Assembly (NCBI GenBank): GCA_026418055.1
Contig: JAOACB010000014.1
Location: 1-55,703, forward strand
Direction: 5' to 3'
From: Fimbriimonadales bacterium
GTDB lineage: Bacteria > Armatimonadota > Fimbriimonadia > Fimbriimonadales > Fimbriimonadaceae
Length of the DNA: 55,703 nt
Shown here: one piece after another, positions 31,561-39,156 of the stretch
Numbering within the stretch: position 1 is the stretch's first letter
Layout: each line of letters starts with the position of its first letter
Made by a program: the position numbers and the translations under genes
Notes under the pieces: model-generated
Told to the model about the DNA's origin: nothing
The model's database searches: none
Seen by the model: the letters and a program-made list of their open reading frames with translations, nothing else

Positions 31561-31920
31561 CTACGATGCGGAGACGCCGGTTGCCTGCTGCACGAGCACC
31601 CGGAACGCGGGCATGTCGTGGATGGCCAGCTCCGACAGCATCTTCCTGTTGACGGCGATGCCGTTCTCCTGAAGGCCGTGGATCAGCTGGTTGTACTTCA
31701 CCCCGCACTCCGCGCAGGCGGCCGAGATCCGAGCGATCCAGAGCCTGCGGAAATCGCGCTTGCGAGCCCGGCGGTCCCGGAAGGCGTACTGCCCGGACTT
31801 CATCACCTGCTCGTTGGCGCGCTTGAAGACGTTCTTCTTTCTGCCCCAGTACCCCGAGGCCTGCTCGATGATCTTCTTGTGTCTCTTGTGGCGCATCAGG
31901 CCACGCTTGACTCTTGCCAT
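31561..31920 (-). CDS. rplT: 50S ribosomal protein L20
   Basis: Early assembly protein of the large subunit and, in several bacteria, a repressor of this operon. The 119-residue sequence MARVKRGLMRHKRHKKII... with ASGYWGRKKNVFKRANEQV and ECGVKYNQLIHGL is typical. AAAGGAG lies 6 bases before the ATG. Last gene of infC-rpmI-rplT, 75 bases after rpmI. Confidence 0.98.
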   Translation of the reverse strand: MARVKRGLMRHKRHKKIIEQASGYWGRKKNVFKRANEQVMKSGQYAFRDRRARKRDFRRLWIARISAACAECGVKYNQLIHGLQENGIAVNRKMLSELAIHDMPAFRVLVQQATGVSAS

Positions 31921-31995: not shown

Positions 31996-32190
31996 TCAGA
32001 TCCCGAGAAGCCGGCGCACGCGCTTCTTCTCGCCCTTGAACAACTCCGGCTCCTGCTCCAGCCTCCGCTTCTGCGAGGCGCTCTTGTGCAGGAACATGTG
32101 GTTGTTATGGGACTTCCGGCGCGTGATCTTGCCGCTCCCGGTGATCTTGAACCGCTTGGCCGCCGTCTTGTTGGTTTTCAGCTTTGCCAT
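31996..32190 (-). CDS. rpmI: 50S ribosomal protein L35
   Basis: Small basic large-subunit protein, 64 residues, with the family pattern [20 protein letters not shown] and [17 protein letters not shown]. The start (ATG 32190, GGAAAG just upstream) lies inside the 3' end of infC, whose different reading frame runs on for 86 bases. Translational coupling to infC is likely. Confidence 0.96.
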
Positions 32191-32737
32191 GTTTCTTTCC
32201 TGACTGAGGCCGAGGCGCGAGAACCATCACCATCATCTTGCCGTCCATCGTGGGCGGACGCTCGACGATCGAGATCTCCGTGAGCGCCTGAGCCATCTTC
32301 TCCATGCGCTTTTGGCCGATCTCGGGGTGCGTGATCTCCCTCGCCCGGAACCTGCACACGACCTTGACCTTGTCGCCGTCCCGCAGGAACTCGTCGGCCT
32401 TCTTGAGCAGGTGCTCGAGGTCGTGGTCCGCGATTCGCGGACTGATCTTTATACCCTTAACGTCCTGCTGCTTGCGCTTGTTCTCGCGCTCGCGCTTCTC
32501 CTGGTCGTACTTGAACTTCCCGTGATCGATGATGCGGCAGACCGGAGGCTCGGCGTTCGGCGCCACCATGACCAAGTCCAAGCCCTCGTCTCGGGCGAGG
32601 TTCAGCGCCTGTCTGCTGGGCATGATCCCCAGCTGGGTTCCGTCGCTGCCGATGACCCTGAGCTCGCGGAAGCGGAGGCATCGGTCGTTGATGAGAGGCC
32701 CGGGTTCAGGCCGGACGTTTCTCGAGAACCTTCTTAT
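32105..32737 (-). CDS. infC: Translation initiation factor IF-3, non-standard start
   Basis: IF-3 binds the 30S subunit and checks start-codon and initiator-tRNA pairing. The family sequence begins [20 protein letters not shown] and runs through [18 protein letters not shown] to [13 protein letters not shown]. No ATG, GTG or TTG precedes the conserved N-terminus in frame: the upstream frame closes with TGA two codons before an ATA at 32737, and that ATA follows GAGGTGA by 6 bases. The annotated start is therefore ATA. Alternatively a frameshift is present, since another frame reads [13 protein letters not shown] from ATT at 32759 before stopping. The C-terminus runs 86 bases into rpmI. IF-3 genes often use rare start codons for self-control. 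Confidence 0.85.
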
Positions 32738-32784
32738 CTTCGTTCACCTCTGAGCGAATGGGACTTTGCCTGAATCAAGCCTAC

Positions 32785-32814
32785 AGTATAGCGTCGGTCG
32801 CTCGGAGGCGTCAA
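32785..32814 (-). promoter_or_regulatory. Promoter of infC-rpmI-rplT
   Basis: On the minus strand TTGACG (complement of 32809-32814) is followed after 18 bases by TATACT (complement of 32785-32790). Expected start near 32778, about 40 bases upstream of the infC start region, too short a leader for an L20-type pseudoknot. Confidence 0.7.
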
Positions 32815-32875
32815 CGAGATTGGGCCGGCCGTGCCCCGAGCGTCGCCGGAGCGTCTGGCTATGGGGAGAGCCTCT

Positions 32876-35029
32876 ATGCCTACCAAAGACCGGCTGGCGC
32901 TGTTCGGCAGCGACGCGTGGACCGTCGAGCTGGCAGCTCACGCCGCGAACTCTGGCATCGAGACCCTGCTCGGGGCCTCGAACGCCGCGGAAGCGCAAGG
33001 CGCGACGGAGTCTTTGCTCAGGAAGCGCGACACTCTGCTGTGGATGCCGCAGTTCGCTGCTCGGGTTCGATGTCTCGCCTGGCCCGACTTCCTTCGGGAG
33101 GCACCTGGCGCTCGCTGGGTGGTCGGCTGCGCCGATGGTTCCGGGGAGGACCTTCGCGTTCCGATGTTGGCGCTCTCCACGAGGCTTCGCGGAAACCAGA
33201 CGCTGTTCGTCCACGCGCCCGCGTCCTCTGCCCAATGCCTTGCCGAGCTCGTTTCCTTCGGCCCGGCAGACCCTCGGGTCTTCGGCCTGCGGCTGTACCC
33301 CGACGTTCCGAGATCGGGCATGGTCGGGCTGGTGCCGATCGAGGGCTCCCTGCCGAAGCACAGGGCGGAAGCCTTGGCGCTGTGGGACCGCACCCTCGGC
33401 TTGCGAGCCTTCTGGTTCCCCGACTTTCCGGGCTCCGGCGGATGGGGGCTTTGGCTTGCGGCCTCCCTGCGTGCCCTGGCGATCGCCGAGCGTCTCGAGG
33501 CTCCGATCGAGGCGATCGATGCGGCAACAGCCGCTCTGGGCCTCTCTCGCCACGGGATCTTCACCGACCTCGACCACTTCGGCCTCGACCGCGCGCTGCG
33601 CCTCGCGACCGAGCTCCACCGGGCTTGGGAAATCCCCGTGCCCGAAACGCTGAGGAAACTCGTGGAGCGCGGCCGGGTCGGCTCGCGCTCCGGACAGGGC
33701 CTGTTCCGCGTGGAGGCGGCTCGGGACGCGATGCCCCTCGAGCTCTCCACGCTCGCCTACCGCGAGCCTAGGGATCCTCCCCGACTGCCTGGCTTCACGA
33801 ACGACCCCATCGCCGCGATCCGAGAAGCGGCCCGACCGGGCGACGCCGTGGGCGAGTTTCTCCGGATGTGGATCCCAGCCTTGGTTCGCCACGCCGTGGA
33901 CAACCGCAGCGCCACCGCTCGAACGGCATGGGAGGCGGACTCGGCACTGGTGGACGGCTTCGGCTGGCGCATGGGCCCTTTCCGACTCGCCGAATCGTTG
34001 CTGACAGGGAGCAGTCTGGAAGAGGCGCCTTACTACGAGCCCGGACGCACCAGGGTCTTCGGCGGCGGCTGGGCCGCGATCGTCCGTCCAGAGGGTTGCG
34101 AGCCCCTGGCAGAACTCCCTGTGATCGATCAGGACGAGGGTTGGACGCTTCGCGAGTCGAGCCGTGGCCCGGTGCTGTGCTTGGCCGCGGAGGGAGGCGT
34201 CCTTCGTCTTCGAGACATCCATAGCCTCGAACGTTTCCTGGCGGACGGTTCGGAACGCTCGATCCTGCTCGCTGCACCCGCCGGCTGGCCCGTTTGGCTC
34301 GATCCCGAGGGTCTCTTGGAGGTAGCCGGCACCGGTCGTCTGGAAGCCGTTGGCGAGTTCCTCGAGGCGTTCGATCGGCTGTGTCTGCTGATCGAGAGAA
34401 GGGTTCGGGCCAGCCTGGTCGACCGTCCGTGCCTCGGGGTGGGTCTGTCCTTGGCTCTGTCGGCCACCGTGGCGATCGTGCACGCTCCATGCCCCCTCGG
34501 CTTCCCGGAGACGTCGATCGGACTGAATCCGCTGGGCTTGGGACCGGTCCGTCTGCTCTCGTCCAGCCTCGGCCGAGGACCCGGAGTCGTCGCGGAGTTC
34601 GCAGGGAGCCTGTTCCGTGGCGAGATCGCCTGGAACGCATTCTTGGCCCAATCCGTCGGTCTGCTGCGCTCGGTCGACCGTATCGCGCTCCACCGCGACC
34701 GGTTGCTCGAGGCGATTCCCGACGAGCTCTCGCAGGTTGGCACGGATGAGTCCTGGCCCTCGACCGGGGCGGAGGCCGGGTTGCTCCGCGCTTTGGACGG
34801 GTTGCGGAAGACGCGCGGGGCGGACGCGCTGCAGCTCAAAGCGGCGCAACGCATCAAGGGGGCGTGGAGCCTAGCCCTTGACTGGCGCCAGGCCCTCGAG
34901 CTTCAGAGGAGGGCTTTCGTCGAAGGCTTGGCGTCGGCGGCTTGTCAGGCGCGCCTTCGGTCCCGTCCCCTTGCGGGCGGTCCCGCGCAACCATTGCGCC
35001 GCTGGTTCGTCTCTTCGCATGGGGCCTGA
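32876..35029 (+). CDS. FadN-like 3-hydroxyacyl-CoA dehydrogenase/enoyl-CoA hydratase fusion, probably inactive
   Basis: A 717-residue protein with the FadN order: dehydrogenase-like N-terminal half and crotonase-like C-terminal part. The link to FadN comes from layout plus scattered blocks (RLALFGSDAWTVELAAHAANSG at the start, split here by its Trp; GDAVGEFLRMW in the middle; FPETSIGLNPLGLG in the C-terminal part). The Gly-rich NAD loop is replaced (GSDAWT), the catalytic His region is not seen, and the crotonase oxyanion glycines are absent (VGLSLALSATVAIV). It may be a pseudoenzyme with another role. ATG at 32876 has GGGGAGAG upstream. The next gene begins 16 bases later. Confidence 0.65.
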   Translation: MPTKDRLALFGSDAWTVELAAHAANSGIETLLGASNAAEAQGATESLLRKRDTLLWMPQFAARVRCLAWPDFLREAPGARWVVGCADGSGEDLRVPMLALSTRLRGNQTLFVHAPASSAQCLAELVSFGPADPRVFGLRLYPDVPRSGMVGLVPIEGSLPKHRAEALALWDRTLGLRAFWFPDFPGSGGWGLWLAASLRALAIAERLEAPIEAIDAATAALGLSRHGIFTDLDHFGLDRALRLATELHRAWEIPVPETLRKLVERGRVGSRSGQGLFRVEAARDAMPLELSTLAYREPRDPPRLPGFTNDPIAAIREAARPGDAVGEFLRMWIPALVRHAVDNRSATARTAWEADSALVDGFGWRMGPFRLAESLLTGSSLEEAPYYEPGRTRVFGGGWAAIVRPEGCEPLAELPVIDQDEGWTLRESSRGPVLCLAAEGGVLRLRDIHSLERFLADGSERSILLAAPAGWPVWLDPEGLLEVAGTGRLEAVGEFLEAFDRLCLLIERRVRASLVDRPCLGVGLSLALSATVAIVHAPCPLGFPETSIGLNPLGLGPVRLLSSSLGRGPGVVAEFAGSLFRGEIAWNAFLAQSVGLLRSVDRIALHRDRLLEAIPDELSQVGTDESWPSTGAEAGLLRALDGLRKTRGADALQLKAAQRIKGAWSLALDWRQALELQRRAFVEGLASAACQARLRSRPLAGGPAQPLRRWFVSSHGA

Positions 35030-35045
35030 GGGCTCCGGAGGGTGC

Positions 35046-36020
35046 GTGTTCAAGATCCTGGCTTTTCTCGTTGCTGTTTCCTCGGCCAGTCTGACGTGGG
35101 CGCAGCTCGACCCGAACAGGGTGGTCGCCACCGTCAATGGGGAGGAGATCAAGGCCGCCGAGTACTACCAGAGGATGGAGTTCCTGCCCGGCGTTGGCAA
35201 GCGTGTCGGCGACCGTTTCGCCGAACTGCCTCCGGGCTTCATGACGCTCGAGCAACTGATCACCGAGAGGCTCGTTCTGCAACTGGCCAAGAGCAAGGGT
35301 TGCCTGCCCACCGACGCAGAGGTGCAGGCGGAGTTCGAACGCCGGAGGCGCGACGAACCCCAGCTCGTGGAACGGTGGACCGCCTCGGGGCGGACCATTC
35401 CCGAGCTGCTGCACGACATCCGCGTGAATCTCGCCGGGTTCAAGCTCAAAACGTTCGGAATCACGATCACCGACCAGGAGGTGCAGGATTTCTACCGTCG
35501 CAACCCCACGCTGTTCACCATCGAGAAGCGTTACCGCCTGAGGGTGATCGTGGTGGACACCGCCTCCAGGGACAAAGTGGACGCCGCACTGAAGGCCGGC
35601 CGGCCCTTCGCCGATGTGGCCAGGGAGTCGAGCCTGGACCTCACGAAGGTCGAGGGAGGCTTGGTGGGGGTGGTGCCGGCGTCTCGACTGAACGAGGCGT
35701 CGCGCAAAGCCGTTGAGAGCGTGCGCATCGGCCAGACCACCGACTGGATCTCCACAGGGGATCGCCACGCCAAGTTCCTCCTGGAGGACGTTCTGCCGGA
35801 GCAAGTTCTGCCCCTGGACGCGCGCTTGAAGGAAGACATCCGTCGCAGGCTCATGCTGGACCGGGGCAACGTCCGCAACAACGTGCAGAGGGAGATGACC
35901 GAACTGCGGAGGAAGTCCAGGATCGATATCAGGAATCCGGAGTTCGCCGAGATCTACCATCGGATGATCGATTCCTACCTAGCGCAGGAATCCGCCAAAG
36001 CCCAGGGGTCCAAACCCTGA
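35046..36020 (+). CDS. PpiC/SurA-type peptidyl-prolyl isomerase, exported
   Basis: A 324-residue periplasmic folding factor. GTG at 35046 gives a clean signal peptide (MFKILAFLVAVSSASLTWAQ) and has GGAGG 4 bases upstream, whereas an in-frame ATG at 35019 does not. The mature start VVATVNGEEIKAAEYYQRM and the long helical region to about 165 match the SurA/PrsA chaperone module. The parvulin domain (about 180-270: RPFADVARESSLDLTKVEGG, then RIGQTTDWISTGDRHAKF) is recognisable but short. Its stop overlaps mazG by one base. Confidence 0.85.
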   Translation: MFKILAFLVAVSSASLTWAQLDPNRVVATVNGEEIKAAEYYQRMEFLPGVGKRVGDRFAELPPGFMTLEQLITERLVLQLAKSKGCLPTDAEVQAEFERRRRDEPQLVERWTASGRTIPELLHDIRVNLAGFKLKTFGITITDQEVQDFYRRNPTLFTIEKRYRLRVIVVDTASRDKVDAALKAGRPFADVARESSLDLTKVEGGLVGVVPASRLNEASRKAVESVRIGQTTDWISTGDRHAKFLLEDVLPEQVLPLDARLKEDIRRRLMLDRGNVRNNVQREMTELRRKSRIDIRNPEFAEIYHRMIDSYLAQESAKAQGSKP

Positions 36021-36993
36021 TGGTGCGGTTCGTCCGTCTTCCCTCCCCTGCTCCGGAGGAGTGGGGCGAGCAGCTGTGGAGGACGATCCGGGACGCCGAG
36101 TCGCTCTGGTGGCTGGGCGAACGGGACAGAGCCTACGACCGCTTGGTTGCCGAGGGCCTGCCCATCGCCCTCGCCGAAGACGCCATTCCCGACAGAGCCA
36201 CCGTGTTGCTTCCCGCCGCCGGCCGCTCGCCGTTGGAGGATGTCGCCTGGGTGGTGGATCGCTTGCTCGGACCGGGAGGATGCCCTTGGGACCAGCAACA
36301 GACCCACGCGTCGCTCCGCCGCCACCTGCTCGAAGAGGCTTACGAGGTGATCGAGGCGATCGACGCCGAGGATTGGGACAAGCTGCGCGAGGAGCTGGGG
36401 GACCTGCTGATGCAACCGGTGATGCACGCACAGATGGAGAAGCTGCAAGGCAGGTTCGACATCCACGACGTGGCCCGCGACCTCGTCGACAAGCTCGTGC
36501 GGCGCCACCCCCACGTGTTCGGCGACCGAGAGGTGGCCGATGCCGACGAGGTCCTGCGCAACTGGGACAGCATCAAGCAGAGAGAGAAGGGCGGATCGCC
36601 GGAGTCGATCCTGGCCGGGGTGCCCAAGGCCATGGCCGCGTTGCTGCGAGCCTACGAAGTGAGCAAGCGTGCGGCGAGGGTTGGTTTCGAATGGCCCGAT
36701 CTGGAGTCGGTGTTCGGGAAGCTCAGGGAGGAGGAATCGGAGCTTCGAGCGGCCATCGCCTCCGGGCAAGCCCGGGAGATCGAGGCCGAGGTCGGAGACC
36801 TGCTCTTCACCGCGGTGAACCTGGCGCGATGGGCAGGGACCGACCCTGAGAACGCGTTGCGGCGCATGCTCGATCGTTTCACGGCGCGCTTCCAAGCCAT
36901 GGAAAGGCAGGCCGGCAAGCCTTTGGTGGAGCTCACGCCGGAAGAGTGGGACGAGCTTTGGAACGCATCGAAGCGAGATCCGGCCCTGGAGGG

Positions 36994-36997
<4 letters not shown>
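36020..36997 (+). CDS. mazG: Nucleoside triphosphate pyrophosphohydrolase MazG
   Basis: Hydrolyses NTPs and dNTPs, including aberrant ones, to NMP and pyrophosphate. The 325-residue protein has the tandem MazG layout: [23 protein letters not shown] with the metal-binding EExxE and EELGDLLMQ in the first domain, and [10 protein letters not shown] ... [15 protein letters not shown] in the second. An N-terminal region of about 75 residues before the first domain is not part of standard MazG (about 260 aa) and shows no methylase motif. Start ATG shares a base with the previous stop. Ends 4 bases inside the convergent DUF255 gene. Confidence 0.92.

Positions 36998-39156
<2,159 letters not shown>

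Follow-up and report, generated by a model that had tools for sequence, protein, structure and literature searches.

The gene P0001, on the forward strand of the 55,703-nucleotide stretch of Fimbriimonadales DNA that was analyzed as a whole (the window), probably encodes a single-copy pseudoenzyme that arose by conversion of fadN itself and is kept by selection. This reading, which is built on sequence comparison, combines the end-to-end homology of the protein to FadN, the place of the gene at the fadN locus, the loss of catalytic residues, the failure to find another copy, and a low dN/dS ratio. The protein is best named a FadN-derived pseudoenzyme, not FadN; the latter name would attribute to the genomes concerned a pathway the rest of which could not be found. 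We take Bacillus FadN to be the named counterpart of the FadN-type dehydrogenase/hydratase referred to here.

As had been predicted, the ORF is intact: it runs from the ATG at 32876 to the TGA at 35029 over 717 codons without an internal stop. It is carried on contig C40 of a 2.89-Mb genome (135 contigs, 96.8% complete), and the distance from the ATG to the FGS motif is the same in another member of the genus (L071). The closest relatives of P0001 are encoded in two other genomes of the same uncultured Fimbriimonadaceae genus (45–46% identity), the genus sample thus comprising three genomes (97%, 95%, and 73% complete). The features of the gene, all on the + strand, are as follows.

32876..35029: candidate FadN-derived pseudoenzyme P0001, 717 aa (ORF, profile alignment, and residue comparison)
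32876..33415: Rossmann (NAD) domain, residues 1–180; retains its fold in the model but not the NAD loop or the catalytic residues
32906..32923: GSDAWT in place of the canonical GAGTMG, residues 11–16 (alignment)
33290..33292: R139 at the position of the catalytic His (human HAD His158; alignment)
33326..33328: G151 at the Glu position (human HAD Glu170; alignment)
33416..33730: 3HCDH C-terminal domain, residues 181–285, the only domain to pass Pfam (Pfam)
33437..33439: G188 at the Asn position (human HAD Asn208), beside a two-residue deletion (alignment)
33731..34105: second C-terminal region and linker, residues 286–410 (alignment)
34022..34105: block of residues 383–410, conserved between the window and L002 (identity comparison)
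34106..35026: crotonase domain, residues 411–717 (alignment)
34295..34297: W474 replacing the first-loop glycine (alignment)
34448..34450: S525 replacing a catalytic Glu (rat ECH Glu144; alignment)
34508..34510: E545, an acidic residue that is kept (rat ECH Glu164; alignment)

The FadN-like domain order proposed in the original prediction was borne out. When the genus trio was aligned with nine canonical FadNs using hhalign, the match extended from residue 4 to the end over 699 columns (probability 100%, E 7.2e-66), and P0001 has the architecture of FadN, with the HAD domains preceding the crotonase in a protein of ∼720 aa that can be aligned over its whole length. The sole Pfam domain of P0001 over its gathering score was 3HCDH (C-terminal; 44 bits, cut-off 22.1), whereas a canonical protein (L004) passed for 3HCDH_N, 3HCDH, and ECH_1; the best NCBIfam match was Staph_FadB (NF052272) for both (E 1e-10 for P0001). 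Matches to P0001 were present in 109 of the 113 genomes of the order, and the phylum-wide search for FadN gave 113 of 205 genomes. The residue counts given below use 30 loci fetched from these 109 matching genomes, namely three of the genus, one of genome G018, and 26 canonical ones. The genus trio is 23–28% identical to the 26 canonical FadNs, which are 48.5–99.6% identical among themselves. In the tree, the genus formed one side of a branch (100/100), on a stem too long to place it and with a bootstrap that had not converged; orthology rests on gene order. No relatives of P0001 were found in the viral contigs searched. The genome_contigs scan gave none with P0001 alone and two matches with the A1 query, and the plasmid search returned 12 records with weak matches (23–28% identity), nine of which are annotated as 3-hydroxyacyl-CoA dehydrogenase types. 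A 701-aa ORF overlies the fadN-like gene in antisense (32744–34849, − strand); as it is in pieces in the genus region L049, it is probably an artefact of high G+C.

The catalytic roles of His158, Glu170, and Asn208 in human HAD are described in the part of the source available to us (PMC10988713). At the corresponding positions, R, G, and G are found in all three genus members, and H, E, and N in all 26 canonical FadNs compared, none of which shares the substitutions. Thus, the dehydrogenase His motif is indeed absent, as originally proposed, and its loss is common to the relatives. By an ungapped phmmer alignment, W190 instead of G188 would correspond to the Asn, which P0001 thus lacks under both alignments. 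The NAD loop, correctly read beforehand as GSDAWT, is GSGRSA in L002, where two of the three glycines are still present; L003 is cut off there, and the canonical L007 row is gapped at residues 11 and 13, its start having been set too far in. Neither a GxGxxG loop nor the acidic end of the second strand was found, the position of D34 being occupied by A, V, and V in the genus. Over the full protein length compared, no His is conserved across all three genus proteins, a result to be read with the G+C content in mind (67% for the window and 69–73% for the genus genes), which lowers His and Lys in itself when high.

The N-terminal Rossmann fold is, according to the AlphaFold model, kept while the active site is lost. 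This part of the model is confident for approximately residues 1–115 and fair to residue 180. Compared with 3-hydroxyacyl-CoA dehydrogenases and their relatives, it gave Z values of 18.8–21.8 among the matches listed (best 50), and residues 3–188 could be placed on residues 14–209 of 1f0y (Z 19.9; 2.8 Å over 179 residues). Sharing a fold is in itself no proof of function. With a pLDDT of 45.6 (from four alignment rows), the model of the full-length protein is poor and leaves the crotonase domain without a usable model.

For the hydratase part, catalytic roles of Glu144 and Glu164 of rat ECH are given in the accessible portion of PMC5651017. The position of Glu144 (525) is occupied by S in all three genus members and by Glu in all 26 canonical FadNs compared; that of Glu164 (545) is E in the window and D in both other members. 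The two catalytic Glu residues of the hydratase part of FadN are accordingly not both found in the genus. The original claim that the oxyanion glycines of the crotonase domain had been replaced stood for the first loop, where residue 474 is W, Q, or H, but not for the second, whose G521 and G523 are present in all three proteins; the exchange of E525 for S, which had not been part of that claim, is the clearer hydratase loss. D476 is conserved in all three as well. Of 177 columns near-invariant in FadN, 61 are kept by the genus; 40 are shared replacements, three are deleted in both, and 73 are other. In a leave-one-out control, the canonical FadNs kept between 175 of 189 and 177 of 178 such columns. 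The NAD domain of each genus protein retains 12–14 of 61 columns, compared with 20–22 of 49 for the next domain, 13–14 of 22 for residues 286–410, and 24–27 of 45 for the crotonase domain; judged by alignment, the largest loss is thus that of the NAD domain. The block of residues 383–410 behaves differently: its two halves are identical between the window and L002 at fractions of 0.79 and 0.93, versus 0.29 and 0.34 for five canonical pairs. The heavy loss of NAD-domain columns, together with this new block, would fit a protein that gave up NAD chemistry and whose remainder serves as a binding body.

The same residues could be taken to mean that the enzyme was repurposed, its crotonase pocket using the acidic residue 545 and the GxG for some other CoA-ester reaction without the His or the second Glu. 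G521, G523, D476, and an acidic residue 545 are kept in all three proteins, the crotonase domain and the second C-terminal region retain more columns than the NAD domain, and 40 derived residues are shared, all of which would suit such an enzyme. However, the first-loop glycine is not only lost but variable (W/Q/H), and residue 545 itself alternates between E and D, which makes this reading rather unlikely. That P0001 might still be a working dehydrogenase/hydratase whose residues have migrated seems highly improbable. The original prediction had allowed for an intact pocket at other positions; in a partial look, the Rossmann fold of the N-terminal model and the two loop glycines retained by L002 spoke for it, but no His is common to the three genus proteins, the equivalents of Glu170, Asn208, and Glu144 are lost in all of them, and neither thiolase nor PF02770 was found in the three genomes.

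The fadN-like gene is flanked by the following genes.

31561..31920, − strand: rplT, synteny marker (name from sequence)
32105..32623, − strand: infC, divergent neighbor and synteny marker (name from sequence)
35019..36020, + strand: SurA-like PPIase (family match; start at 35019 chosen from the sequence)
36020..36997, + strand: mazG (family match)

The names infC and rplT were assigned to the two ORFs from their sequence and are our assumption. The periplasmic chaperone gene and mazG that had been predicted to follow were confirmed as encoding a SurA-like PPIase and MazG. Gene order was compared over 20 fetched regions, two from the genus and 18 from outside. In 11 of the 18 outside regions, infC adjoins fadN; none was detected by the script in the other seven. 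PPIase and mazG lie downstream of fadN in three of the 18, in all three with a pair of genes in between that, by sequence, reads as etfB-etfA. PF01012 matches directly after fadN occur in further genomes (e.g., G031, G070, G074, and G001), one of which (G001) belongs to another family of the order; the fadN-etf arrangement therefore looks ancestral. In the window and in L049, the order is infC, fadN-like gene, PPIase, mazG, without the etf pair, which is also absent from L050, a region that starts within the fadN-like gene. Most likely, the pair was removed from the operon of the genus. The shared gene order identifies the P0001 gene as the positional orthologue of the family's fadN, between infC/rplT and PPIase-mazG. 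Adjoining mazG is an ORF (window 36994–39156, − strand; counterpart L050:4091-5455) whose 720-aa product carries a CHWCH motif, is presumably YyaL-like, and shows 64–67% identity within the genus.

Selection was assessed with a codon model on one genus pair, L002 and L003 (79% identical), the dS of the window's own gene being saturated. For this pair, dN/dS was 0.076 (bootstrap 0.053–0.092, 60 resamplings). The five other frames of the same DNA gave 1.7, 7.2, 1.3, 0.198 (antisense), and 10. That the real frame is so low and the other frames are mostly above 1 indicates that its coding character is not due to chance. The protein is under purifying selection in these two closer genus members. 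In the same pair, dN/dS was 0.023 for the PPIase and 0.033 for mazG, the value for the P0001 gene being approximately threefold and twofold higher, respectively. After pairs with saturated dS or near-identical sequence had been left out, one canonical FadN pair of similar dS remained (L004 and L017), with a dN/dS of 0.032. The constraint is thus weaker than that on active FadN and on the neighbors, but strong. It covers the whole protein (0.070, 0.046, 0.026, and 0.105 over the four domains), which speaks against the gene being kept solely as a leader whose translation is coupled to that of PPIase and mazG downstream; the chosen PPIase start does overlap the P0001 stop codon in the window, but some 700 constrained codons would be needless for that purpose, and we regard this explanation as having next to no probability.

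Compared with its surroundings, the gene has changed fast. Between the window and L049, identity is 46% for the FadN-like protein, 77% for the PPIase, 83% for mazG, 91% for rplT, and 93% for infC; in three canonical regions, it is 46–54% for FadN, 36–41% for the PPIase, and 54–66% for infC. The protein of the genus has diverged fast and is now held by selection. Fast divergence could also mark a gene in decay, a fadN that remained when β-oxidation was lost, and the copy of UBA8783 (L003/L072) has a single in-frame TAG, at codon 224 of the L003 fragment, where L002 has Gln; this TAG is either an assembly error or real decay. Yet, the low dN/dS makes decay very unlikely (among the alternative frames, four exceed 1 and the fifth gives 0.198), as does the fact that two species whose proteins are only 46% identical have open frames of 717 and 709 codons. 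Recoding of TAG as Gln was rejected because ORFs of the window, rplT included, themselves end in TAG: of the 25 that match relatives, some of them spurious overlapping frames, nine end in TAG, 13 in TGA, and three in TAA. The genus-wide losses and the dN/dS of this one informative pair uphold the prediction that selection keeps a protein unable to act as a normal β-oxidation enzyme. What is expected of a pseudoenzyme, a fold kept while catalytic residues are lost, is seen here by model for the N-terminal fold and by sequence for the other domains.

The searches for thiolase and acyl-CoA dehydrogenase covered the order, that for FadN also the phylum. Thiolase (PF00108) was found in none of the three genus genomes (107 of 113 in the order), nor was acyl-CoA dehydrogenase by PF02770 (108 of 113) or 3HCDH_N at E ≤ 1e-10 (107 of 113). 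An intact fadN elsewhere was sought and not found: in its own genome (96.8% complete), there is one P0001 match and no second copy. Nine weaker 3HCDH_N matches in that genome, 32–47 positions long and in other ORFs, three of which pass the family cut-off, were taken for Rossmann loops of other enzymes. One enoyl-CoA hydratase is retained in each genus genome, and AMP-binding (acyl-CoA-ligase-type) proteins gave two, two, and one matches. Although the partner thiolase and PF02770 acyl-CoA dehydrogenase are missing from all three genomes, a divergent ACAD-like gene exists. The ordinary β-oxidation cycle thus looks broken in the genus, but some acyl-CoA chemistry remains. The weak ETF signals in the genus trace to the cluster that contains this gene.

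L070:644-6593; L069; G000:C102:43903-46077: ACAD-like/ETF-QO-like/EtfB-like/EtfA-like cluster

The cluster encodes a 743-aa ACAD-like protein in which no PF02770 middle domain was recognized; its other products are an ETF-QO-like protein carrying Fer4 and two divergent proteins, one EtfB-like and one EtfA-like. The ACAD-like protein, to which the order-wide search of the cluster was confined, is 91–96% conserved within the genus; among 110 other genomes of the order, only G026 and G111 have close relatives (63–67%), and ten further genomes gave weak matches (E 1e-6 to 1e-4). A degenerate pathway as a whole was rejected, the ACAD-like protein being well conserved and the cluster being taken for a separate system.

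Outside the genus, one genome (G018, 99% complete) has no thiolase, PF02770, or ETF matches and has kept a full-length FadN (L051, G018:C23:60000-79999). His139, Glu151, and both hydratase Glu residues are present in it, and Asn188 is replaced with Ser; it is 46–52% identical to the FadNs of four genus mates, which are 54–61% identical among themselves. G018 may stand at an earlier point on the same path, or its FadN may still be used alone. Another genome (G112) contains thiolase but has no PF02770, ETF, or P0001 match (canonical L004 matches at E 1.5e-27), indicating that FadN-like genes are not retained in every case.

How a pseudoenzyme could have come about from the only copy of fadN can be sketched as follows. 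β-Oxidation would have been dismantled in the genus while the FadN-like protein stayed, its large acyl-CoA-binding body already having, or gaining, a noncatalytic role. The C-terminal and crotonase domains might bind acyl-CoA or an acyl chain, as a carrier, sensor, or scaffold, and the block of residues 383–410 might be a contact site. An acyl-CoA-binding role in the manner of EchA6 is an analogy that we put forward tentatively. It is conceivable, if doubtful, that the FadN of the family generally has a second, noncatalytic role independent of β-oxidation, which became its sole role in the genus after the pathway had been lost, so that the sole copy turned into a pseudoenzyme without duplication, perhaps with G018 at an earlier stage. 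Against the pseudoenzyme reading count the TAG in UBA8783, the fast evolution, the single pair behind dN/dS, the acidic residue kept at position 545, and the acyl-CoA enzymes that remain in the genus. Within the bounds of three genomes and one informative pair, the significance of the case lies in an unduplicated enzyme of central metabolism that seems to have been converted in place on loss of its pathway, in a family that provides canonical orthologues for comparison; together with the possible intermediate G018, it makes a hidden noncatalytic role of a β-oxidation enzyme testable.

In the literature searched on pseudoenzymes, inactive enoyl-CoA hydratases, fadN-etfB, and Fimbriimonadaceae, no account of this protein was among the matches listed, and none was found that pairs pseudoenzyme with hydroxyacyl-CoA dehydrogenase. 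P0001 resembles the FadN-type enzyme of Fimbriimonadaceae in domain order, length, place beside infC, and end-to-end alignment, but lacks the NAD loop, the dehydrogenase His, Glu, and Asn, and one hydratase Glu of the canonical protein. With EchA6 of Mycobacterium tuberculosis it shares a crotonase homologue and a weak sequence match (E 0.006); EchA6 is reported, in the portion of PMC5964476 available, to lack catalytic residues and to shuttle fatty acyl-CoA. In contrast to EchA6, a lone crotonase domain in a 263-residue chain, it is a whole FadN fusion that is degenerate here, and its acyl-CoA binding is putative. Pseudoenzymes in general, as characterized in the available section of PMC10211241, retain the fold although the catalytic motifs are gone, and P0001 is like them in both respects. 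Gene duplication is named in PMC6549527 as the driver of their evolution; unlike pseudoenzymes of that origin, in this genus it was the only copy found that was converted.
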